A stretch of DNA of 32,292 nucleotides, from the IMG/VR virus record IMGVR_UViG_3300033143_000132, positions 1-32,292 of that record; one strand, given 5' to 3'. Below, piece after piece: positions 1-12,185 of the stretch. Numbering within the stretch: the stretch's first letter is position 1; each line of letters starts with the position of its first letter. Origin of the DNA: a virus. Both the position numbers and the translations under genes were made by a program. Below the pieces are notes generated by a model, which was given only the letters and a program-made list of their open reading frames with translations, searched no databases and was not told where the DNA came from.

Positions 1-60
1 ATCTACTAATTCTGCACGTCTTTGTTTCCAATTCATATGCTCTTGTTCTAAATCTCTCAT
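1..60 (-). CDS. Small phage protein, N-terminal part only (runs off window)
   Basis: Reading leftwards from an ATG at 60-58, 20 codons are open up to the window edge. The peptide begins M-R-D-L-E-Q-E-H and is rich in charged residues. The start is preceded by an A/T-rich leader ending in ACT, the context shared by the neighbouring minus-strand genes, and a T7-like promoter copy (81-113) would start its transcript 27 nt upstream. No function can be assigned from 20 residues. Confidence 0.6.
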   Translation of the reverse strand, partial: MRDLEQEHMNWKQRRAELVD

Positions 61-77
61 AGTTTTAATTTAATTTA

Positions 78-287
78 TTATATTATCGATTCTTCTTCGT
101 ATTTAATTTGTAAATTCTCTAACGCTATTTTATAACCAAAGTTAATTGCCATTTGCATTAGTAAAATATCCATAGAACCTTGATTAGCTTTAGCAAATGA
201 TTCTAGATAGTTCCTGTCTTTCGGCGTAGCTACGATACCTCGATCGAGCTTTGCCATTTCGCTTTTTATATATTTATTTATTTCCAT
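78..287 (-). CDS. Hypothetical small protein (69 aa)
   Basis: A 69-residue protein rich in Lys, Glu and Ile, with no membrane segment and no motif I recognise. A second ATG just upstream is out of frame and closes after a few codons, so 287 is the start. The gene follows the 50-aa gene 295-447 by 7 nt and is probably co-transcribed. Its last eleven codons coincide with T7-like promoter copy 1, so its C-terminus (L-Q-I-K-Y-E-E-E-S-I-I) is dictated by promoter DNA. Function unknown. Confidence 0.65.
   Translation of the reverse strand: MEINKYIKSEMAKLDRGIVATPKDRNYLESFAKANQGSMDILLMQMAINFGYKIALENLQIKYEEESII
81..113 (-). promoter_or_regulatory. T7-like promoter, copy 1
   Basis: A 33-bp motif read on the minus strand: WTACAWAY block, AATACGA, nine variable bases, GATAATA. 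AATACGA plus the preceding A/T matches positions -17 to -10 of the T7 consensus, and the first G of GATAATA falls at +1 (position 87). The leader to the ATG at 60 would be 27 nt. It lies inside the 3' end of gene 78-287. Confidence 0.7.
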
Positions 288-294
288 ACATAAT

Positions 295-447
295 TTATTC
301 TTTTACCCACTCTACAATTTCTTTACACGTTTCTAAGACGTCTTCAAAGTAATCATTTTCTAAGTAATCTGGATCTTCATCGCCTGCGGCGTCTGAGTAT
401 TTAATAGTGTTTAACAACTCATCTAGTTGTTGGTAAAGATATTTCAT
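295..447 (-). CDS. Acidic small protein (50 aa)
   Basis: ATG at 447-445, stop TAA at 297-295. The product begins M-K-Y-L-Y-Q-Q and is strongly acidic, with many Asp and Glu residues in its middle (D-E-D-P-D-Y), as is common for phage host-takeover or nucleic-acid-mimic proteins, though nothing specific supports such a role. The start is preceded by the A/T leader ending in ACT. The nearest upstream elements are the 11-bp hairpin (474-540) and tRNA-like element 1 (546-648), so its mRNA may arise by processing rather than from its own promoter. Confidence 0.6.
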   Translation of the reverse strand: MKYLYQQLDELLNTIKYSDAAGDEDPDYLENDYFEDVLETCKEIVEWVKE

Positions 448-473
448 AGTTATATTTTTAAATTAGTAATATT

Positions 474-540
474 TTAACAGTAGGCATTGCGACTCGGTAA
501 CGCTGCACCCTTCTTGTCCAGGCTTGGTACCTACTGTTAA
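474..540. ncRNA. Long perfect hairpin closing a 45-nt loop
   Basis: Positions 474-484 (TTAACAGTAGG) and 530-540 (CCTACTGTTAA) are perfect reverse complements, an 11-bp stem. The 45-nt loop contains a smaller GCG/CGC stem (489-491 with 501-503). It sits directly 3' of tRNA-like element 1 in the minus-strand direction and is GC-richer than the neighbouring genes. It may be a separate structured RNA, a processing signal or an attenuator. There is no T-run after it, so a simple intrinsic terminator is unlikely. Confidence 0.45.
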
Positions 541-545
541 TTAGA

Positions 546-648
546 GGACGTGGCAGGAATCGAACCTGCGTTACTGTATATGAGTTAGTGGGCTACTGTC
601 TTGCAGATTTACGCGCTAACTTCCAACAGCCTAACCATCTTCACGCCC
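546..648 (-). ncRNA. tRNA-like element 1 (acceptor and T-arm, no anticodon arm)
   Basis: On the minus strand 648-642 (GGGCGTG) pairs with 552-546 (CACGTCC) as a 7-bp acceptor-like stem with one G-U. A perfect T-arm lies at 569-553: GCAGG, loop TTCGATT, CCTGC. Just after the 5' acceptor comes ATGGTTA, which resembles a D-loop. The remaining roughly 60 nt do not form a 5-bp stem with a 7-nt loop in the right place, so I assign no anticodon. It is about 103 nt, longer than ordinary tRNAs. No CCA is encoded. A divergent real tRNA cannot be excluded. Confidence 0.55.
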
Positions 649-909
649 AAATACCCAGACATTTCCTAAGCGCGGTGCACCACTGTAATTAAACCGGTGC
701 GCGTCTTTGTTATTTATTCGCTGGGCTAATACAGTTATCTCTGTTTCCACGAGTTCATAACGATCCCTCGCCGCTTCAACAATCGGACTTCCACCGTGCA
801 TGCAGTTAATTACTCTGCAACCCGTGATACTGCACTGTACTACAATCATCGAGCCGACGTCACGCTGTACCTCGTCGTTAGACTTAACTAGTGAGGATTC
901 GAACCTCAT
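631..909 (-). CDS. Doubtful 92-aa ORF between two tRNA-like elements
   Basis: The frame is open for 92 codons, but its ATG lies at the T-stem of tRNA-like element 2 and its stop lies within the D-like part of element 1. The GC is about 48 percent with G/C-rich third positions and frequent CGN arginine codons, unlike the AT-rich genes on both sides. It lacks the A/T-ACT leader of the other minus-strand genes. It may be a chance frame through structured RNA. If real, the product is a 92-residue soluble protein with three cysteines and no motif I know. Confidence 0.2.
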   Translation of the reverse strand: MRFESSLVKSNDEVQRDVGSMIVVQCSITGCRVINCMHGGSPIVEAARDRYELVETEITVLAQRINNKDAHRFNYSGAPRLGNVWVFGREDG

Positions 910-966
910 ACCCGTCGGTAGCCCGAGTCGCGAAGCCTGTCTTGCGTCTCTAACCTGACCTAGTTG
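885..966 (-). ncRNA. tRNA-like element 2 (acceptor, D-like loop, T-arm)
   Basis: On the minus strand 965-960 (AACTAG) pairs with 891-886 (CTAGTT). It is followed by a D-arm-like GTC-AGGTTAGA-GAC and ends with a perfect T-arm at 908-892: TGAGG, loop TTCGAAT, CCTCA. The 37 nt between them fold into CGCAAG/CTT-C-GCG with loop ACAGG rather than an anticodon arm. A 9-mer GCAAGACAG is shared with element 1. Length is 82 nt and no CCA is encoded. A divergent class II tRNA remains possible. Confidence 0.5.
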
Positions 967-1041
967 CCGCTAGCTATTCACTTATGTACACACGTATCTC
1001 CTCCCTGAGTTCCTATGTGTCTAATTAAGCTACTCGTCTAG

Positions 1042-1230
1042 CTATTTACGTCGCCAAGCTTTGTGCACTGATGCACTTACTTCTTGGCTAACGACTTGTA
1101 TTGTATTACCTGTTTTATGGTTTATTATAGGTATATAACTATAATCCTGAACTGTGCTACAAGGAACACATGTTTTATAACCATAATTTACTCTAATAGG
1201 GTGCACTACTGTGCCGCATTTACAATACAT
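1042..1230 (-). CDS. Small zinc-ribbon-like protein (62 aa)
   Basis: The product starts M-Y-C-K-C-G and carries a second pair C-V-P-C about 18 residues later, giving CxC ... CxxC, a plausible four-cysteine zinc site. The tail is basic (K-A-W-R-R-K). Small zinc-binding proteins of this kind are common in phage early regions and often bind nucleic acid or RNA polymerase; that role is inference. The start has the A/T-ACT leader, and T7-like promoter copy 2 lies 33 nt upstream. Downstream in the same transcript is tRNA-like element 2. Confidence 0.7.
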   Translation of the reverse strand: MYCKCGTVVHPIRVNYGYKTCVPCSTVQDYSYIPIINHKTGNTIQVVSQEVSASVHKAWRRK

Positions 1231-1256
1231 AGTTTTATTTTTATTTGTTACAGTTA

Positions 1257-1289
1257 TATTATCAATAACTATTCGTATTATATTTGTAA
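1257..1289 (-). promoter_or_regulatory. T7-like promoter, copy 2
   Basis: Same 33-bp layout as copy 1, with AATACGA and GATAATA separated by 9 nt. Predicted +1 G at 1263, leader of 33 nt to the ATG at 1230. It overlaps the last codons and stop of gene 1278-1454. Confidence 0.7.
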
Positions 1290-1454
1290 TAACTTATTAA
1301 GAGCAACATTTATTACATATTGTTTCATTTCTTGATAGTCATCACCGTCAAGTGGTTGGTCGGCTAGTTGCCAATCAACACTATCTTCAATAATTTCTTT
1401 TATGTGATCCGCTACACCCTGTGCAATCGTATCTAGTTCTTTCATTTTACTCAT
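1278..1454 (-). CDS. Acidic small protein (58 aa)
   Basis: ATG at 1454-1452, TAA at 1280-1278. The protein begins M-S-K-M-K-E-L-D-T-I and is acidic in its middle (D-Q-P-L-D-G-D-D). It starts 1 nt after the stop of gene 1456-1590, so the two are translationally linked. Its stop codon overlaps T7-like promoter copy 2, and its final L-L-Q-I comes from promoter bases. No family recognised. Confidence 0.6.
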   Translation of the reverse strand: MSKMKELDTIAQGVADHIKEIIEDSVDWQLADQPLDGDDYQEMKQYVINVALNKLLQI

Positions 1455-1455
1455 G

Positions 1456-1590
1456 TTATTTAAATTTATCTGCTACTTCGTATATTTCTTCTTTGTCTTC
1501 TGAATCTAGTCCAGGTGTTTGCTGAGCGTACATACGTAGTACATAATGTACAAAAGTGCAGTCGTTTTCTGTTAGTTTAAGTGTTTTCAT
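1456..1590 (-). CDS. Hypothetical small protein (44 aa)
   Basis: ATG at 1590-1588, TAA at 1458-1456. The protein begins M-K-T-L-K-L-T-E-N-D and ends in an acidic helix (S-E-D-K-E-E-I-Y). Its start directly abuts the stop of gene 1591-1737 and its stop is followed by the ATG at 1454, a tightly packed operon transcribed from promoter copy 3. Too short for confident family assignment. Confidence 0.6.
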   Translation of the reverse strand: MKTLKLTENDCTFVHYVLRMYAQQTPGLDSEDKEEIYEVADKFK

Positions 1591-1737
1591 TTAATCTTGT
1601 TCTAATAATTCATATATTTCGCTAAGTGTCATTTCGTCCACTTCACATTTCTTATAATTCTGTTGTACCCACCATTTAGACCACGCTAAATTCCATGGGT
1701 TAGTTTCTTTAGTTTCCACGTTGTATAAATTCTTCAT
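1591..1737 (-). CDS. Trp-rich small protein (48 aa)
   Basis: ATG at 1737-1735, TAA at 1593-1591. It contains four tryptophans within residues 15-23 (N-P-W-N-L-A-W-S-K-W-W) followed by an acidic helical tail. It overlaps the end of gene 1709-1969 by 29 nt in another frame, and its stop abuts the ATG of gene 1456-1590. This ordered packing supports it as real. Function unknown. Confidence 0.55.
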   Translation of the reverse strand: MKNLYNVETKETNPWNLAWSKWWVQQNYKKCEVDEMTLSEIYELLEQD

Positions 1738-1969
1738 TAGTTACCATCCATTCACAGTTTATTATTTGATGTCCTGCGCCGTATAAAAACGATTCACAAG
1801 ATTCTGTATCTGGATTCCATTCATTTTCTTTTGTACATAATGCGCTAATGTCATATCTATACGCTTTACCATCTGTAAAATCTAATACAAATATATATTT
1901 AGCTGACTCATCTGCTACTGTTATTTTTTCTTCTTGCATATCATGCCACTTTTTTATTGTATCGCTCAT
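1709..1969 (-). CDS. Hypothetical protein (86 aa)
   Basis: I take the ATG at 1969-1967, whose ATGA overlaps the stop of the upstream gene 1966-2220. The frame is open further upstream (to 2023), but those codons would lie inside that gene. The protein begins M-S-D-T-I-K-K-W, has a beta-rich middle (Y-I-F-V-L-D-F) and two cysteines. No membrane segment or known domain. It is a member of the six-gene operon behind promoter copy 3. Confidence 0.65.
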   Translation of the reverse strand: MSDTIKKWHDMQEEKITVADESAKYIFVLDFTDGKAYRYDISALCTKENEWNPDTESCESFLYGAGHQIINCEWMVTNEEFIQRGN

Positions 1970-2220
1970 GTTTTTACTATTTCTATTAATTGTTTTACTG
2001 AATATCTTGATTGATGTTTCCACATACGGTTGTGAGTGAACTTTCGTGCTTTGGCCGAATAGGATTTCTTGCCGTTAATTTGTACGCGAGTGTACTCTGC
2101 ATCTGTGAGTCCACTACACCTGCCGTCATGTGCGTGCTTGAGCCTATGCACTCTTGCACGATTTTGTTGCGCCTGTTTAGCATAGAGACACAGTTCTTTC
2201 ATGTTAGTTGGATTAGACAT
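1966..2220 (-). CDS. Basic small protein, probably nucleic-acid binding (84 aa)
   Basis: Very basic throughout, with many Arg, Lys and His (for example N-R-A-R-V-H-R-L-K-H), which suggests nucleic-acid or ribosome contact; this is inference from composition only. The start overlaps the stop of gene 2213-2416 by 8 nt and the stop overlaps the next start as ATGA, so translation is coupled in both directions. GC is somewhat higher than in its neighbours. Long ORFs on both strands here are shadows. Confidence 0.6.
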   Translation of the reverse strand: MSNPTNMKELCLYAKQAQQNRARVHRLKHAHDGRCSGLTDAEYTRVQINGKKSYSAKARKFTHNRMWKHQSRYSVKQLIEIVKT

Positions 2221-2416
2221 AAGACCAGATTGTAGGTTTGTGTTCGATATAAGTTAATCCTTGGTAGTTAAACCACGAGTTAATACCTTCTTGATCTTTA
2301 TCGCTATTGTAGATGAAGGCAAATCTATTTGGTAATTCGCCAACATTGTAACCTTTATAGGTTATGTTGTTTAATTTGATAGTAGTTTTGTCTACTTGTT
2401 TGATTATATTTTGCAT
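2213..2416 (-). CDS. Hypothetical small protein (67 aa)
   Basis: First gene of a six-gene operon. ATG at 2416 with leader AAATTAAACT, and T7-like promoter copy 3 starting transcription 21 nt upstream. The sequence alternates beta-like segments (T-T-I-K-L-N-N-I-T-Y) with aromatic residues and has no known motif. Downstream genes 1966-2220, 1709-1969, 1591-1737, 1456-1590 and 1278-1454 follow without gaps. Confidence 0.65.
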   Translation of the reverse strand: MQNIIKQVDKTTIKLNNITYKGYNVGELPNRFAFIYNSDKDQEGINSWFNYQGLTYIEHKPTIWSYV

Positions 2417-2430
2417 AGTTTAATTTATTA

Positions 2431-2463
2431 TATTATCAATAGTTAATCGTATTTCGTATGTAT
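2431..2463 (-). promoter_or_regulatory. T7-like promoter, copy 3
   Basis: Same 33-bp layout, with AATACGA nine bases before GATAATA. Predicted +1 G at 2437, leader 21 nt to the ATG at 2416. It is the only promoter-like element ahead of the six-gene operon. Its first base overlaps the stop codon of gene 2463-2705. Confidence 0.7.
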
Positions 2464-2705
2464 TATAGTACGGATTTATCTGTACCTTGAAATGCTTTAT
2501 GAGCATTGTGAGTAGCATAATTAGCTATTCCTTGTCTGAATTGCCATTCACGCTTACGATATTCGTAGTCAGTACACCATTTGTACATAGCTATACTTGA
2601 AGTACAAGGTTTGTACTTAGTTTCAAACTCTTTTATTTGATTTAGTTTATCAGTGATTAGACCTTTAGCGTCTAGCTCTTTAAATTTAGTATCTTGAAAT
2701 TGCAT
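2463..2705 (-). CDS. Hypothetical protein (80 aa)
   Basis: Starts M-Q-F-Q-D-T-K-F-K-E and is predicted helical and charged, with two cysteines and several Tyr and Trp residues in the second half. ATG at 2705 with leader AATAATACT. It follows gene 2710-2844 by 4 nt. Both genes lie downstream of mini tRNA-like element A, not directly behind a promoter copy. No family recognised. Confidence 0.65.
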   Translation of the reverse strand: MQFQDTKFKELDAKGLITDKLNQIKEFETKYKPCTSSIAMYKWCTDYEYRKREWQFRQGIANYATHNAHKAFQGTDKSVL

Positions 2706-2709
2706 AGTA

Positions 2710-2844
2710 TTATTTATTAGTATTTTGATAAAATGTTATTCTTTCTTGAACGTCTTCACGAGTTATCTCGCCGCTCATTTGTTTTAGTATGTCGCTTGAC
2801 ATATCTATTTGTTTACCGTTAGGTAGATTTAGTATAAATTGCAT
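2710..2844 (-). CDS. Hypothetical small protein (44 aa)
   Basis: ATG at 2844-2842, TAA at 2712-2710, begins M-Q-F-I-L-N-L-P-N-G. The first residues resemble a short beta strand, followed by a helical, charged segment. The start lies 30 nt downstream of the 3' end of mini tRNA-like element A, in the same A/T-ACT context as its neighbours, so its leader could be generated by cleavage at that element. Function unknown. Confidence 0.6.
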   Translation of the reverse strand: MQFILNLPNGKQIDMSSDILKQMSGEITREDVQERITFYQNTNK

Positions 2845-2874
2845 AGTATTATTATTTTAAAAGTTATTATTAGT

Positions 2875-2914
2875 AGACATGGTGAGAATCGAACTCACGT
2901 TAACCATTATGTCT
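2875..2914 (-). ncRNA. Mini tRNA-like element A (acceptor plus T-arm only, 40 nt)
   Basis: On the minus strand 2914-2909 (AGACAT) pairs with 2880-2875 (ATGTCT), followed by an A-C mismatch at the seventh pair. The connector 2907-2899 reads ATGGTTAAC, with a D-loop-like GG. The T-arm 2898-2882 is GTGAG, loop TTCGATT (perfect TTCRANY), CTCAC. There is no room for D and anticodon arms. It lies between gene 2927-3046 and gene 2710-2844. Compared with element B, paired bases change together. Confidence 0.65.
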
Positions 2915-2926
2915 TTTTTATGTACA

Positions 2927-3046
2927 CTAGTAGAAATCGTAGTAGATATCCATAACTTTAGACTTTTGCTCGTCAGTTAATTTAGTGTAATGCTTGTCGT
3001 ATAGTCGCCAAGATATTTTTAGTAATGTGTATGAAAATGTAGACAT
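2927..3046 (-). CDS. Hypothetical small protein (39 aa)
   Basis: ATG at 3046-3044, stop TAG at 2929-2927. The protein begins M-S-T-F-S-Y-T-L-L-K and is rich in Tyr and Lys. It is the first gene behind T7-like promoter copy 4 (leader about 43 nt, A/T-ACT start context) and is followed 12 nt later by mini tRNA-like element A. Short, but its position in the promoter-gene-element pattern supports it. Confidence 0.55.
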   Translation of the reverse strand: MSTFSYTLLKISWRLYDKHYTKLTDEQKSKVMDIYYDFY

Positions 3047-3076
3047 AGTTATATTGTTTAAAGATTATTAATTAGT

Positions 3077-3220
3077 TTATTGTATTATCGATTTTGAGTC
3101 GTATTTAGTTTGTATTGGTTTTTCGTAGTTCTCATCATTGAGAGTTCCAAAGAGTAGCTCGTCAAAATATTCTTCACGAGCTATAAATCTCTGTTGTAGT
3201 TTGCTATAGTAACTTTTCAT
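3077..3220 (-). CDS. Small protein whose 3' end encodes promoter copy 4 (47 aa)
   Basis: ATG at 3220-3218 overlaps by one base the stop of gene 3220-3429 (TAATG). TAA at 3079-3077. It begins M-K-S-Y-Y-S-K-L-Q-Q. The whole of T7-like promoter copy 4 (3083-3115) lies inside its last codons and gives the C-terminus P-I-Q-T-K-Y-D-S-K-S-I-I-Q, strikingly like the end of gene 78-287, which covers copy 1. The likeness therefore reflects promoter DNA, not shared protein ancestry. Confidence 0.6.
   Translation of the reverse strand: MKSYYSKLQQRFIAREEYFDELLFGTLNDENYEKPIQTKYDSKSIIQ
3083..3115 (-). promoter_or_regulatory. T7-like promoter, copy 4 (closest to T7)
   Basis: Same 33-bp layout. Here the bases after AATACGA are CTCA, so AATACGACTCA is identical to the T7 promoter from -16 to -6, and G at +1 (3089) is in register. 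Leader about 43 nt to the ATG at 3046. Confidence 0.75.
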
Positions 3221-3429
3221 TAGTAGCAGATTTGACAGTTAATAGAATCCATCGCTGAATAATCAACTTGGCCTGTTATCATCATAAAGATGAAGAAGGT
3301 AATTCCACCAATCGCTAATGGCATTAGTAAACCGAAAGCTATTACTTCCGCCACAACTTCTGTTAGTGGCTTTGATTTTACGTATTTAGTTACTGCAGGA
3401 ATAAATCCTCTGAATTTGAAATTTGACAT
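3220..3429 (-). CDS. Small single-pass membrane protein (69 aa)
   Basis: A hydrophobic stretch of about 22 residues (roughly 29-52, V-I-A-F-G-L-L-M-P-L-A-I-G-G-I) predicts one inner-membrane helix, with a basic N-terminal part and a C-terminus with two cysteines (C-Q-I-C-Y). ATG at 3429 with leader ending ACT, 21 nt after the 3' end of mini tRNA-like element B. The next gene overlaps its stop by one base. Small early membrane proteins in phages can act in superinfection exclusion, but that is a guess. Confidence 0.65.
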   Translation of the reverse strand: MSNFKFRGFIPAVTKYVKSKPLTEVVAEVIAFGLLMPLAIGGITFFIFMMITGQVDYSAMDSINCQICY

Positions 3430-3450
3430 AGTTATAATTTAGTTATTAGT

Positions 3451-3492
3451 TGTCATAGTGTGAATCGAACACACTCGAGTACCATAATGACA
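3451..3492 (-). ncRNA. Mini tRNA-like element B (acceptor plus T-arm only, 42 nt)
   Basis: On the minus strand 3492-3487 (TGTCAT) pairs with 3456-3451 (ATGACA), again followed by a mismatch at the seventh pair. The connector 3485-3475 begins ATGGT, and the T-arm 3474-3458 is GTGTG, loop TTCGATT, CACAC. Both stems differ from element A by paired substitutions, while the ATGGT, TTCGATT and trailing ACTAATAA are conserved. It lies 21 nt upstream of the start at 3429. Confidence 0.65.
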
Positions 3493-3612
3493 TAGCTGTT
3501 TTCAACATTGTTTAGACAGGTGATGTACACAGCTTAACGCGCCTGTATAATATCCAGTTTAGCCTGTTGCCTGCTCGGTTCGGATAGTCACCGTTTGGTA
3601 AAGAAGTAGTAG
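3493..3612. other. Gene-free spacer with possible further RNA structure
   Basis: No ORF with a plausible start. A 74-nt stretch 3519-3592 is closed by GGTGA/TCACC, which is tRNA-sized, but lacks a T-loop consensus or a good anticodon arm. GC is somewhat above the neighbouring genes. It could be an additional, more diverged member of the tRNA-like set. Confidence 0.3.
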
Positions 3613-3843
3613 TTATACTACCTCTTTATCTCTTAGTACAACTGGCACACTAGTTGAAGAAGTGTAAGAGCCATACTTTTCAAAGCAATTTATAGAAGAT
3701 AATTTGTCTTTCATAATTTCATACACTTTATCGTGATTGTAAGTGAATGATTTGCCTGATTTAAATTCTACATTGATAGTAGTATTTTTGCCGATTAAAG
3801 ATTTTCTGATGACGAATCTTTTTGAAGTAATTGAATTTTGCAT
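3613..3843 (-). CDS. Hypothetical protein (76 aa)
   Basis: A 76-residue soluble protein beginning M-Q-N-S-I-T-S-K-R-F, alternating beta-like stretches (T-T-I-N-V-E-F-K-S-G) with a short helix and one cysteine. The ATG at 3843 has the A/T-ACT leader, and T7-like promoter copy 5 lies 54 nt upstream. The stop is followed by the structured spacer and mini tRNA-like element B. No family recognised with certainty. Confidence 0.65.
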   Translation of the reverse strand: MQNSITSKRFVIRKSLIGKNTTINVEFKSGKSFTYNHDKVYEIMKDKLSSINCFEKYGSYTSSTSVPVVLRDKEVV

Positions 3844-3890
3844 AGTTAAAAGTATTTATTATTATTATTAGTATTTATTAGTTACATTAT

Positions 3891-3923
3891 TATTATCATT
3901 ATGTATTCGTATTAAGTTTGTAA
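3891..3923 (-). promoter_or_regulatory. T7-like promoter, copy 5
   Basis: 33-bp motif containing TAATACGA (identical to T7 -17 to -10) and GATAATA nine bases later, with predicted +1 G at 3897. It overlaps the stop codon of gene 3912-4055, whose TAA is part of TAATACGA. Confidence 0.75.
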
Positions 3924-4055
3924 TAACTTGTATTGAAATCTTTGAAAGTAATATATTTCATTTAGTATACACTTTGGCATTACATTTTGTATAATTACTT
4001 CTGGATTTTTTATTAGAAATAATTCTATTGATTGTATGTAAGTTATTCGTTTCAT
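3912..4055 (-). CDS. Hypothetical small protein (47 aa), first gene of the left arm
   Basis: ATG at 4055-4053, TAA at 3914-3912. It begins M-K-R-I-T-Y-I-Q-S-I and ends in L-L-Q-T, the last codons being supplied by promoter copy 5. It is the gene closest to the divergent control region and would be transcribed from promoter copy 6 with a 26-nt leader. Ile, Tyr and Gln rich; no motif. Confidence 0.55.
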   Translation of the reverse strand: MKRITYIQSIELFLIKNPEVIIQNVMPKCILNEIYYFQRFQYKLLQT

Positions 4056-4074
4056 AGTTAGTTTGTTACATTTA

Positions 4075-4107
4075 TATTATCATTATAACTTCGTATTAAG
4101 TATGTAA
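4075..4107 (-). promoter_or_regulatory. T7-like promoter, copy 6
   Basis: 33-bp motif with TAATACGA and GATAATA in the same register, +1 G at 4081. It is the promoter nearest the divergent control region and abuts the TGTCA-rich cluster. Confidence 0.75.
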
Positions 4108-4125
4108 AATAGTTTAGTAGTAGAA

Positions 4126-4233
4126 TGTGACAAGATGTCATACCACTATGTCACTATGTCACTAACAATAGTATATTAAATATATGACGTAATGTCATGA
4201 CAATCAGTCATATGTGTCATGTCAATGTGTCAT
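4126..4233. repeat. Cluster of TGTCA/TGACA pentamers
   Basis: About nine TGTCA or TGACA pentamers in 108 nt, including the 8-bp direct repeat CTATGTCA (4146-4161) and the near-palindrome ATGTCATGACA (4192-4202). Two more occur around 4466 and 4504. It lies just upstream of the leftward promoter array and before the rightward late genes, where operators or replication iterons are expected. Confidence 0.4.
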
Positions 4234-4577
4234 ACGCTAAATCTCACAAGGAAAAGAAGAGCGAGACAGGATAATAACCTTGAAATCTAGGTAGAAAAGT
4301 CTAAACCCCCCGCTCGGGGCCCTGAAAAGTCGCATATATGACATGGAAAATCCTAAAACGCACGCGGACCCGCAAATTTGAAACCCATTTCTCGTAGGGA
4401 AAAAGAAAGCGAGGATAGGGGGCAACACCATACCCCTATATTTGTAACAACTTTTTTAAAAACAGTGACATAAGCCTTATAATATAGATAAGTAACACCC
4501 TATTGTCACACTTTATGTAAAAACACTTCAAAACCTGTAATGATATAGACTAAAGAAAACAAACAAAAACTAACTAA
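4234..4577. other. Divergent control region without genes
   Basis: Roughly 340 nt with no credible gene. An imperfect GC-richer repeat of about 30 nt occurs at 4243-4274 and 4391-4419 (shared GGAAAA-GAA-GCGAG-GGAT). A CCCC-GCTC-GGGG hairpin lies at 4308-4319. TATATTTG at 4437-4444 matches the Bacteroidota -7 element TAnnTTTG on the plus strand but without an obvious -33 TTG. TATAAT occurs at 4478-4483. Rightward late transcription probably starts here. Confidence 0.4.
4306..4320. terminator. Possible GC hairpin terminator
   Basis: CCCC-GCTC-GGGG at 4308-4319. In the minus direction it is followed by GGTTTAGACTTTTC, a weak T-rich tail. A four-base-pair stem is short, so this is tentative. Confidence 0.2.
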
Positions 4578-5036
4578 ATGTCTATAATTCAAAGTTATCC
4601 AAAAGGTACGCCTAAAAAAGAAGATTATGTAATAGGTACATCTATACCTACGGCTAATTCTGATGAAACGCCAACTACTAGAAACTTTTTAGTAGGATCA
4701 ATAGTTGATCTAGCAAATAGTACAAGTTTAGGTTACACATCATACGTAGCTTTAATAAGTCAAACAGGAACAAACGATCCTATAGCTACACAATTAGCTA
4801 ACACAACTAATAAAACATTTACATTCACTAGAGCATCAAATGGAAGTTATAGCATAATCGCATCAGGTAGTTTGTTTACCTCAGGTAAAACTATAGTGTT
4901 TTTAAATGGAGGCGCTGCAGAAAATAATCATGACGTAGCGTGGCTAAGAGTAAGTGATACTATTATAAACCTAGAAACACATAACAGCGACAATAAATTT
5001 ACAAACGGTTCTTTAGAAATAAGAATATACTCATAA
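4578..5036 (+). CDS. Small virion/fibre protein with SYP-type N-terminus (152 aa)
   Basis: First gene of the rightward block. The N-terminus (I-Q-S-Y-P, then about 12 residues, V-I-G-T ... T-R-N-F) matches the N-terminus of the next protein, suggesting a shared attachment domain. Residues about 50-150 alternate Ser/Thr-rich beta strands, as in receptor-facing or head-decoration knobs. No signal peptide or membrane helix. The start is chosen at the ATG preceded by AAAACTAACTAA. Placement before the large fibre genes supports a structural role; the exact position in the virion is unknown. Confidence 0.65.
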   Translation: MSIIQSYPKGTPKKEDYVIGTSIPTANSDETPTTRNFLVGSIVDLANSTSLGYTSYVALISQTGTNDPIATQLANTTNKTFTFTRASNGSYSIIASGSLFTSGKTIVFLNGGAAENNHDVAWLRVSDTIINLETHNSDNKFTNGSLEIRIYS

Positions 5037-10634: not shown

Positions 10635-12185
10635 ATGGCGGATGCTATAGTAAAAAATCTTAGTTTTGGAGACAAAGCTAAAGATAAAATATTTAAAGGA
10701 ATTGAACAACTCACAAATGCTGTTAGCTCCACTTTAGGAGCTAGCGGTAAATGTGTCATAATGGAAGATGACCAGGGTAATCCTGTTATAACAAAAGATG
10801 GTGTTACTGTTGCAAACTGCATAACATTGCACGATCCAATAGAAAATATGGGTGCTACCTTATTAAAAGGTGCGGCTAGAAAAACAGTTAATGAAGCTGG
10901 TGATGGAACGACTACGGCCACCGTGTTAGCTCACGCTATATTAAGTGAGGCTCGTAGTAAAGATGTAAATCCTAGAGAATTAAAAGAAGGAATAAACAAA
11001 GCTGTTAACGAAGTTGTTAAGTATTTAGAATCAATAAGTATACCTGTTAAAGGTGACATGATAGATGACATAGCAACTATATCAACTAATAATGACAAAG
11101 TTTTAGGTAAATTAATAGGTGATGCTTTTAGAGAGGTAGGTGAGACAGGGATTGTAACACTAGGTGTTTCTGAAAACGGAATAACAGAGACTGAAATAGT
11201 AGATGGTATAGAATACTATAAAGGTTATTGTCATCAAAACTTTATAACTGACAAAGAAAAAGGCACGGCGGAACTAGATAGACCGCTGGTTTTAATAATG
11301 GAATCAAAAGTAGAATCTATTAGACAAATACAACCAGTACTAGAACATGTGATAAAAAACAATAAACCATTACTTTTAATAGGTGAAGTTGATCCAACGG
11401 TTCTTTCTGCTTTAGTAATGAATAAAATGAAGGGTAATATTAAAGTAAATGTTGTAGACCCTCCAGCATATGGCTTGCGTAAAAAAGAAATACTAAATGA
11501 TTTAGCTTTGCTTACAAACTCAACTATAATAAATGAGGATCTAGGTGATGATTTAAATGCAATACAAATAGATTATTTAGGTGAATGTGTAAAGTCAGTT
11601 TCTCAAGAAAATCAAACAGTAATTCAAGTAGAAGAAATACCTGATGAAGCTAAAGATTTTATAGAAAAAATAAAAAAAGATTTAAAAAAGAAAAACCCTG
11701 CACACGTTGTTGTTAATTTAGAAAGAAGATTAGCTACATTAAGTGCTAAAGTGGCTATAGTAAAAGTAGGTGCTTTTTCTGATGTAGAATTAAAAGAAAA
11801 AACAGATAGGGTCGAAGACGCTATATGTGCTACAAAAGCCGCTATAAAACAAGGTATAGTACCAGGAGGTGGTATTGCTTTATTAAATGCTTCATCAATA
11901 ATAAAACCTAAAACAAAAGGTCAAAAAGTATTATTAGAAGCTATAAAATCACCTTTTAAAACTATACTTAAAAACGCTAATATTAAAGAACCGGATTTTA
12001 GTAAAAATGACGGTACTGGATTAAACGTGGTTACAGGAAAAATGGTAAATATGGTTGAGTCAGGGATTATTGATCCTTTGCTCGTGACTAAAAGCGCTTT
12101 GATTAACGCGGCTTCTGTGGCAACAACTATTCTTTCTACTGATTGTGTAATTAATAATATGAGAATAGATGAAAGCGCTAGGTAG
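10635..12185 (+). CDS. groEL: Phage chaperonin GroEL (Hsp60, 516 aa)
   Basis: A full-length group I chaperonin subunit, which folds proteins inside an ATP-driven double ring. Visible signatures: T-L-G-A-S-G-K (about 33-39), I-T-K-D-G-V-T-V-A (52-60), G-D-G-T-T-T-A-T-V-L (89-98, with the ATP/Mg aspartate), an apical segment around 190-205, L-E-R-R-L-A-T-L-S (362-370), R-V-E-D-A (392-396, with the hydrolysis aspartate) and G-G-G (411-413). It is about 30 residues shorter than bacterial GroEL, lacking the C-terminal Gly-Gly-Met tail, and has N202 where the apical domain usually carries a tyrosine. It overlaps groES downstream. Probable clients are capsid or tail proteins of this phage (inference). 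Confidence 0.95.
   Translation: MADAIVKNLSFGDKAKDKIFKGIEQLTNAVSSTLGASGKCVIMEDDQGNPVITKDGVTVANCITLHDPIENMGATLLKGAARKTVNEAGDGTTTATVLAHAILSEARSKDVNPRELKEGINKAVNEVVKYLESISIPVKGDMIDDIATISTNNDKVLGKLIGDAFREVGETGIVTLGVSENGITETEIVDGIEYYKGYCHQNFITDKEKGTAELDRPLVLIMESKVESIRQIQPVLEHVIKNNKPLLLIGEVDPTVLSALVMNKMKGNIKVNVVDPPAYGLRKKEILNDLALLTNSTIINEDLGDDLNAIQIDYLGECVKSVSQENQTVIQVEEIPDEAKDFIEKIKKDLKKKNPAHVVVNLERRLATLSAKVAIVKVGAFSDVELKEKTDRVEDAICATKAAIKQGIVPGGGIALLNASSIIKPKTKGQKVLLEAIKSPFKTILKNANIKEPDFSKNDGTGLNVVTGKMVNMVESGIIDPLLVTKSALINAASVATTILSTDCVINNMRIDESAR

Follow-up and report, generated by a model that had tools for sequence, protein, structure and literature searches.

What is the role of a tRNA-like element that consists of an acceptor stem and a T-arm and has no anticodon? 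Two such elements, A and B, are present on the minus strand of the IMG/VR virus record IMGVR_UViG_3300033143_000132, of which positions 1 to 32,292 (32,292 nucleotides) were analysed here as the window. Portal, terminase, virion structural protein and GroEL of the window pointed to the lineage of the Flavobacterium elemo, Cellulophaga and Maribacter podophages. The phage-encoded GroEL (PHROG 5725) was located at 10635-12185 on the plus strand and was conserved in many related contigs.

Anatomy of elements A and B

Both elements were located in a leftward run of small genes without assigned function. Element B followed a 76-aa ORF, and element A was a second copy after another small gene of the same run. 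The features of this region were:

2710-2844, minus strand: 44-aa ORF, with its AUG 30 nt downstream of A
2867-2874, minus strand: trailer ACTAATAA of element A, N73 = A, then CTAA
2875-2914, minus strand: mini tRNA-like element A, with acceptor AGACAT/ATGTCT, D-loop-like ATGGT and T-arm GTGAG-TTCGATT-CTCAC
3220-3429, minus strand: 69-aa ORF, the variable partner, with its AUG 21 nt downstream of B
3443-3450, minus strand: trailer ACTAATAA of element B, N73 = A, then CTAA
3451-3492, minus strand: mini tRNA-like element B, with acceptor TGTCAT/ATGACA, D-loop-like ATGGT and T-arm GTGTG-TTCGATT-CACAC
3494-3546, minus strand: type I H-type pseudoknot directly 5' of B, with S1 ACAGG/CCTGT and S2 AGCTGT/ACAGCT ending 1 nt before the acceptor
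3551-3593, minus strand: type II H-type pseudoknot, with S1 CGGT/ACCG and S2 TATCC/GGATA
3613-3843, minus strand: 76-aa ORF, the conserved upstream partner of the mini elements

Read 5' to 3', element A was AGACAT-A-ATGGTTAAC-GTGAG-TTCGATT-CTCAC-C-ATGTCT, then A-CTAATAA, and element B was TGTCAT-T-ATGGTACTCGA-GTGTG-TTCGATT-CACAC-T-ATGACA, then A-CTAATAA. The linker comprised 9-12 nt, and acceptor position 7-66 was unpaired in both. The coordinates, strand, stems, ATGGT connector and TTCGATT loop in the preliminary description were exact, and so was its distance of 21-30 nt to the next start codons. ARAGORN identified no tRNA in the window in default and intron modes. The calls of its relaxed modes for mitochondrial-type tRNA and tmRNA were noise and yielded nothing useful.

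A covarying family in related phages

A and B are members of a widespread family of anticodon-less tRNA-like elements of ~40 nt in uncultured marine flavobacterial phages. The family unit is a 6-bp acceptor stem, a D-loop-like AUGGU without a D stem, and a T-arm, followed by N73-CUAA. A generic descriptor (T-loop TTCRANN, 5-bp T-stem, 6-bp acceptor, 6-20 nt linker) matched 99 times in the window and 2.35 Mb of fetched phage DNA taken together, compared with two matches when the same DNA was reversed. The latter correspond to ~0.03 expected matches per 32 kb, and two were found in the window. Since the fetched loci were chosen partly by the ATGGT/T-arm pattern, the fair tests are the covariation of the acceptor stem and the gene linkage in loci fetched by protein.

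The search pattern for viral contigs fixed ATGGT and half of the T-arm, left the acceptor free and returned at least 120 matching stretches. Among the matches listed, the T-stem was completed in 98 of 109 distinct copies, and a 6-bp acceptor helix in tRNA geometry was present in 79 of 109. Shuffling the acceptor 3' sides between the 109 copies left 7.3 such helices (maximum 15). There were 35 different acceptor helices among the matches listed. In an alignment of 35 sequences, which were selected for pairing, 98.7% of the cells paired and 10 of 11 base pairs showed two-sided changes. The covariation score of this alignment was 0.797; shuffles gave 0.184, and slid partners did not exceed 0.160. 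The preliminary description had concluded from two copies that structure and not sequence is kept, and the strong covariation in many relatives bears this out. The D-loop likeness of ATGGT and the pseudoknots upstream had escaped it. A and B scored 67.0 and 58.0 bits with the family model, values reached by construction because the identical sequences sit in the model.

ATGGT was invariant in the 35-sequence alignment, though most copies had been retrieved with a pattern that included it. It resembles the conserved G18-G19 of a D-loop; a D stem is absent, an arrangement also present in the tRNA-like domain of tmRNA. It could dock on the T-loop and thereby rebuild the elbow.

Genomes usually held one to three mini elements per 40-70 kb. 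Among 45 near-whole or partial records, the majority had one, and a few had two or three. The mini element was absent from the cultured relatives examined, namely Cellulophaga phi38:1, phi46:3, phi19:3 and Calle_1, Maribacter Panino, Tenacibaculum Gundel_1, Flavobacterium elemoA and immuto, and MW202828. R1 matches in cultured relatives were weak, and those checked against annotation were mostly ordinary tRNA genes. In 257 Gb of cellular genomes the pattern was nearly absent, with six matches. Four of these have the 76-aa gene upstream and therefore look like phage contigs.

Two longer anticodon-less tRNA-like RNAs, of types termed C and D, share the run of genes with A and B, and a hairpin is located there too:

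475-539, minus strand: long hairpin of high GC content (TAACAGTAGG/CCTACTGTTA), located between ORF 295-447 and the C-type RNA
546-648, minus strand: C-type tRNA-like RNA, with acceptor GGGCGTG/CACGTCC (G3.U70), GATGGT, a 72-nt insert and a T-arm, then TCTAA
886-965, minus strand: D-type tRNA-like RNA, with acceptor AACTAG/CTAGTT, hairpin insert TACC-GACG-GGTA and T-arm TGAGG-TTCGAAT-CCTCA

The C-type was represented by 33 distinct copies in related loci, with the acceptors GGGCGTG/CACGTCC, GGGAGTG/CACTTCC or GGGGGTG/CACCTCC. G3.U70, the alanine identity pair that also occurs in tmRNA, was found in 31 of 33, and position 4-69 covaried. The inserts of 30-100 nt were unrelated between phages. 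The D-type was also present in four related loci (L239, L245, L256 and L273) with the acceptor (T)AACTAG/CTAGTT(A). It held a covarying, variable-arm-like hairpin around GACG (TACC/GGTA, TACT/AGTA) immediately before the T-stem. A separate array was detected in a 54.6-kb virus record (L233; also L170), with eight mini elements on one strand in ~1 kb, compared with none in shuffled or reversed sequence. Their T-loops were TTCGATT, TGCAATT or TGCAAAT and their acceptors comprised 7 bp. The L233 virus encodes an MCM helicase and a tyrosine integrase and is possibly archaeal. Mini elements of other sequence, mostly intergenic, were present in the unrelated phages L274 (G040), L278 (G041) and L277 (G043).

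Linkage to a conserved gene, pseudoknots and tRNA-like trailers

The 76-aa protein has no Pfam family, and its AF2 model (pLDDT 87.6) had no fold match. Homologues of its ORF preceded 69 of 99 distinct elements. The linkage was also examined in reverse, with loci fetched by the 76-aa protein alone, 68 of which had enough sequence past its stop codon. An element of the covariance model was present in 32 of the 68. An acceptor plus T-arm element with any linker was found within 200 nt after the stop codon in 47 of the 68, compared with 0 in reversed, 0 in antisense and 0.4 (maximum 2) in dinucleotide-shuffled controls. With near-copies removed, 38 of 58 loci held such an element. Sub-types with the linkers TTGGAGCAGNGG and ATAGATNCGTAA and with 45-nt inserts occupied the same slot behind the 76-aa gene, and their acceptor stems covaried too. 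Acceptor and T-arm are the parts that are kept.

The gene downstream of the mini element differed between relatives, and a phage promoter followed the element directly in 3 of 77 non-redundant cases. The preliminary description had proposed that cutting of the elements gives the 5' ends of the next genes. The short distance to the next AUG stands, but the emphasis on the next gene has to be revised: with a conserved partner upstream, a variable gene downstream and, in these three cases, a promoter directly after it, the element can at least equally be read as a 3'-end element belonging to the upstream message.

Between the stop codon of the 76-aa gene and the mini element, one or two H-type pseudoknots were frequent. 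A joint search for both helices reached the 2/40 shuffle level in 31 of 74 non-redundant upstream regions, compared with ~4 expected. The type II consensus was NGGT-GA-CTNNCC-GA-ACCN-...-AACTGGNNAG, with a covariation of 0.438 vs 0.106. In type I, a loop such as ACTTGTT pairs with GAACAAGT immediately before the acceptor stem. A swap test of S2 alone was weakly positive for type I (10 best of 68 vs 2.2 expected), so the case for type I comes chiefly from S1 and S2 tested jointly. In the window, a type II pseudoknot followed by a type I pseudoknot preceded B; the type I copy at 3494-3546 was read by eye, its loop 2 being longer than the limit of the joint search, and its class is supported elsewhere. 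Element A had no pseudoknot, and a homologue at a related locus (L215) has a type II module inserted exactly there.

The 3' side of the mini elements resembled that of the true tRNAs of these phages. These tRNAs (Met, Gln, Arg and Gly), with ARAGORN ends shifted by one base, carried no encoded CCA and had a CTAA trailer after N73. Of 70 mini elements, 66 had A at N73 and 65 had A at N76, followed mostly by A77; C74 and T/A75 belonged to the filter for these 70. The AUG was typically located 15-25 nt after mini elements and 15-22 nt after true tRNAs. The reading of A and B as tRNA mimics in the preliminary description is thus backed by covariation and by a trailer and a placement common to real tRNAs. 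A candidate role of CTAA as part of a promoter was rejected. The promoter-like motif TTACAAANTAAATACGA-N9-GATAATATAA occurred upstream of small genes on the minus strand of the window and in relatives with 113 copies, 109 of which had a spacer of 9, and 75 of the 113 lacked CTAA within a distance of 60 nt. An alanine identity of A and B was likewise rejected because G3.U70 is absent.

Candidate mRNA processing signals and alternative explanations

Structural features of an RNase P substrate are a coaxial stack of ~12 bp with a T-loop, N-1 unpaired with N73, and an RCC-like 3' end. The mini elements held 6+5 pairs plus one more position in the acceptor/T-stem stack, the T-loop and N73-C74, and pairing of N-1 with N73 was possible in only 7 of 70. 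Among the RNase P model substrates (AT1, pMini), AT1 consists of exactly acceptor stem, T-stem and T-loop, and E. coli RNase P cuts it at the canonical site (PMC11143913). The enzyme also cuts phage M3 RNA, C4 RNA and the TYMV tRNA-like RNA (PMC11143913). Cleavage of A and B by RNase P and RNase Z is plausible by this analogy. AT1 is synthetic, and the M3 and P1/P7 C4 RNAs are antisense or other RNAs, whereas the mini elements bear a D-loop and form an intercistronic cassette that would be cleaved. Neither RNase Z nor a CCA enzyme was encoded by the phages in 21 genomes examined, so host enzymes must be assumed.

A and B may, with a probability of about one half, be minimal RNase P/RNase Z substrates that punctuate the phage mRNA, with pseudoknots guarding the new 3' end. 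Each mini element is built like the upper half of a tRNA alone, its acceptor stacked on a T-arm and its D-loop lacking a stem, and is embedded in the leftward transcript of the small genes. The cassette runs from the 76-aa stop codon through the H-type pseudoknot(s), the mini tRNA, CUAA and ~15-30 nt to the AUG. Host RNase P would cut where the acceptor stem begins on its 5' side, and host RNase Z after N73, thereby splitting the polycistronic message. The upstream mRNA would be left with an exonuclease-resistant pseudoknot at its end, and the downstream mRNA would begin with a short unstructured CUAA leader. Several observations speak against punctuation. Type I pseudoknots lie 0-2 nt from the acceptor, which leaves no single-stranded leader and may hinder RNase P. 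General punctuation would call for more than the usual one to three mini elements per 40-70 kb, the gene conserved next to them lies upstream and not downstream, and the CUAA trailer could be part of the leader of the next gene.

Known RNA families did not account for the elements. With Rfam 15, nothing in window positions 1-4600 and 20 related loci reached the gathering score except a true tRNA in L213. Compared with tRNA (RF00005), the mini elements had no D arm, no anticodon arm and no ARAGORN call. The likeness to the tRNA-like domain of tmRNA (RF00023) lies in an acceptor and T-arm with a stemless D-loop, and tmRNA was the best Rfam match of element A. However, the scores of 15.5 (element A) and 17.0 bits were far from the gathering score of 47, an mRNA-like domain was absent, and A and B had no G3.U70, which was present in most C-type RNAs. 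Truncated or armless mitochondrial tRNAs of nematodes and mites share the strongly reduced tRNA body, but they keep the anticodon arm and decode, whereas the mini elements keep the T-arm and have no anticodon. Plant mitochondrial t-elements define mRNA ends, where RNase P and RNase Z cut them, and are CCA-tailed but not aminoacylated (PMC11658184). They resemble the mini elements in their tRNA-like nature and lack of an encoded CCA (PMC11658184); the mini elements lie between genes and would give mRNA ends if cut. The t-elements are described as homologous to tRNA genes and as having a typical tRNA-like structure, whereas the mini elements have no D stem, anticodon arm or recognisable parent tRNA; the acceptor stems of the mini elements vary freely, and the related loci showed no tRNA that shares one of them. 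Unlike t-elements, the mini elements carry 5' pseudoknots and belong to phages, not organelles. The nearest kinds are t-elements and RNase P model substrates, compared with which the mini elements are more reduced, pseudoknot-linked and located in phages. No description of such elements was found in a limited literature search with few subscription journals and no preprints.

An unlikely alternative is an uncut tRNA-like structure in the 3'-UTR or between cistrons, in which pseudoknot and mini element stabilise the message or boost translation. RNase P without cleavage, EF-Tu, the CCA enzyme or the ribosome could bind there, as at the 3' ends of plant-virus RNAs. In tobamoviruses, the stop codon is followed by a pseudoknot domain and a tRNA-like structure. 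The same order of stop codon, pseudoknot(s) and tRNA-like element was fixed behind one conserved phage gene, with a pseudoknot adjoining the acceptor stem, and the strict link to this gene, the variable gene downstream and the three promoters in 77 cases fit this explanation as well. The phage elements differ from those of plant viruses in being much smaller and intercistronic in a DNA phage, without a CCA end or an aminoacylation identity. They are internal rather than at the transcript 3' end, with a CUAA trailer and an AUG typically 15-25 nt downstream. The lack of an encoded CCA and of an anticodon, which makes an amino-acid identity unlikely, also counts against it.

Somewhat less probable still is a stable small decoy RNA, in which freed mini elements would sequester host enzymes or defence toxins directed at the acceptor ends of tRNAs. 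Conservation of the upper half of the tRNA alone with varying inserts, and several tRNA-like RNAs in one run of genes, would suit a decoy, but it needs neither the fixed linkage to an upstream gene nor the spacing to the next AUG.

An exchange site at the DNA level, where cassettes of the small-gene region would be swapped by recombination at the conserved tRNA-like sequence, is improbable. The downstream gene does differ between relatives, and the type II pseudoknot module of L215 is missing at the same place before element A. However, compensatory changes and the reversed and antisense controls show selection on RNA from one strand, and acceptor stems of differing sequence are poor for homologous exchange. 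Functionless decayed or truncated tRNA genes, suggested by the tRNA-like T-arm and acceptor and by the long inserts of the C- and D-types, are largely refuted and the least probable of all, because 35 different helices covary in a uniform, repeated architecture with gene linkage and with the trailer and AUG distance of real tRNAs, related loci showed no tRNA from which those acceptor stems could derive, and intact tRNAs occur in the same genomes. Two refuting conditions named in the preliminary description, a lack of counterparts in relatives and an origin as fragments of decayed tRNAs, were answered against; relatives carry many such elements.

Returning to mRNA punctuation, we tentatively suggest, with somewhat less confidence than for A and B themselves, a new class of natural minimal tRNA mimics that serve as programmable mRNA end signals in DNA phages. 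They would recruit host tRNA-maturation enzymes and belong to a broader anticodon-less repertoire of C-type, D-type and separate mini arrays. Because tRNA finders and Rfam miss RNAs of this kind, many may lie unannotated in phage genomes. If uncut, the mini elements would be the closest DNA-phage counterpart of the pseudoknot and tRNA-like 3' ends of plant viruses. If cut, they would be natural minimal RNase P/RNase Z substrates used as phage mRNA punctuation, a strategy otherwise best known from organelles, and as small modular processing tags they would make it easy to test what the elbow of a tRNA recruits on its own.
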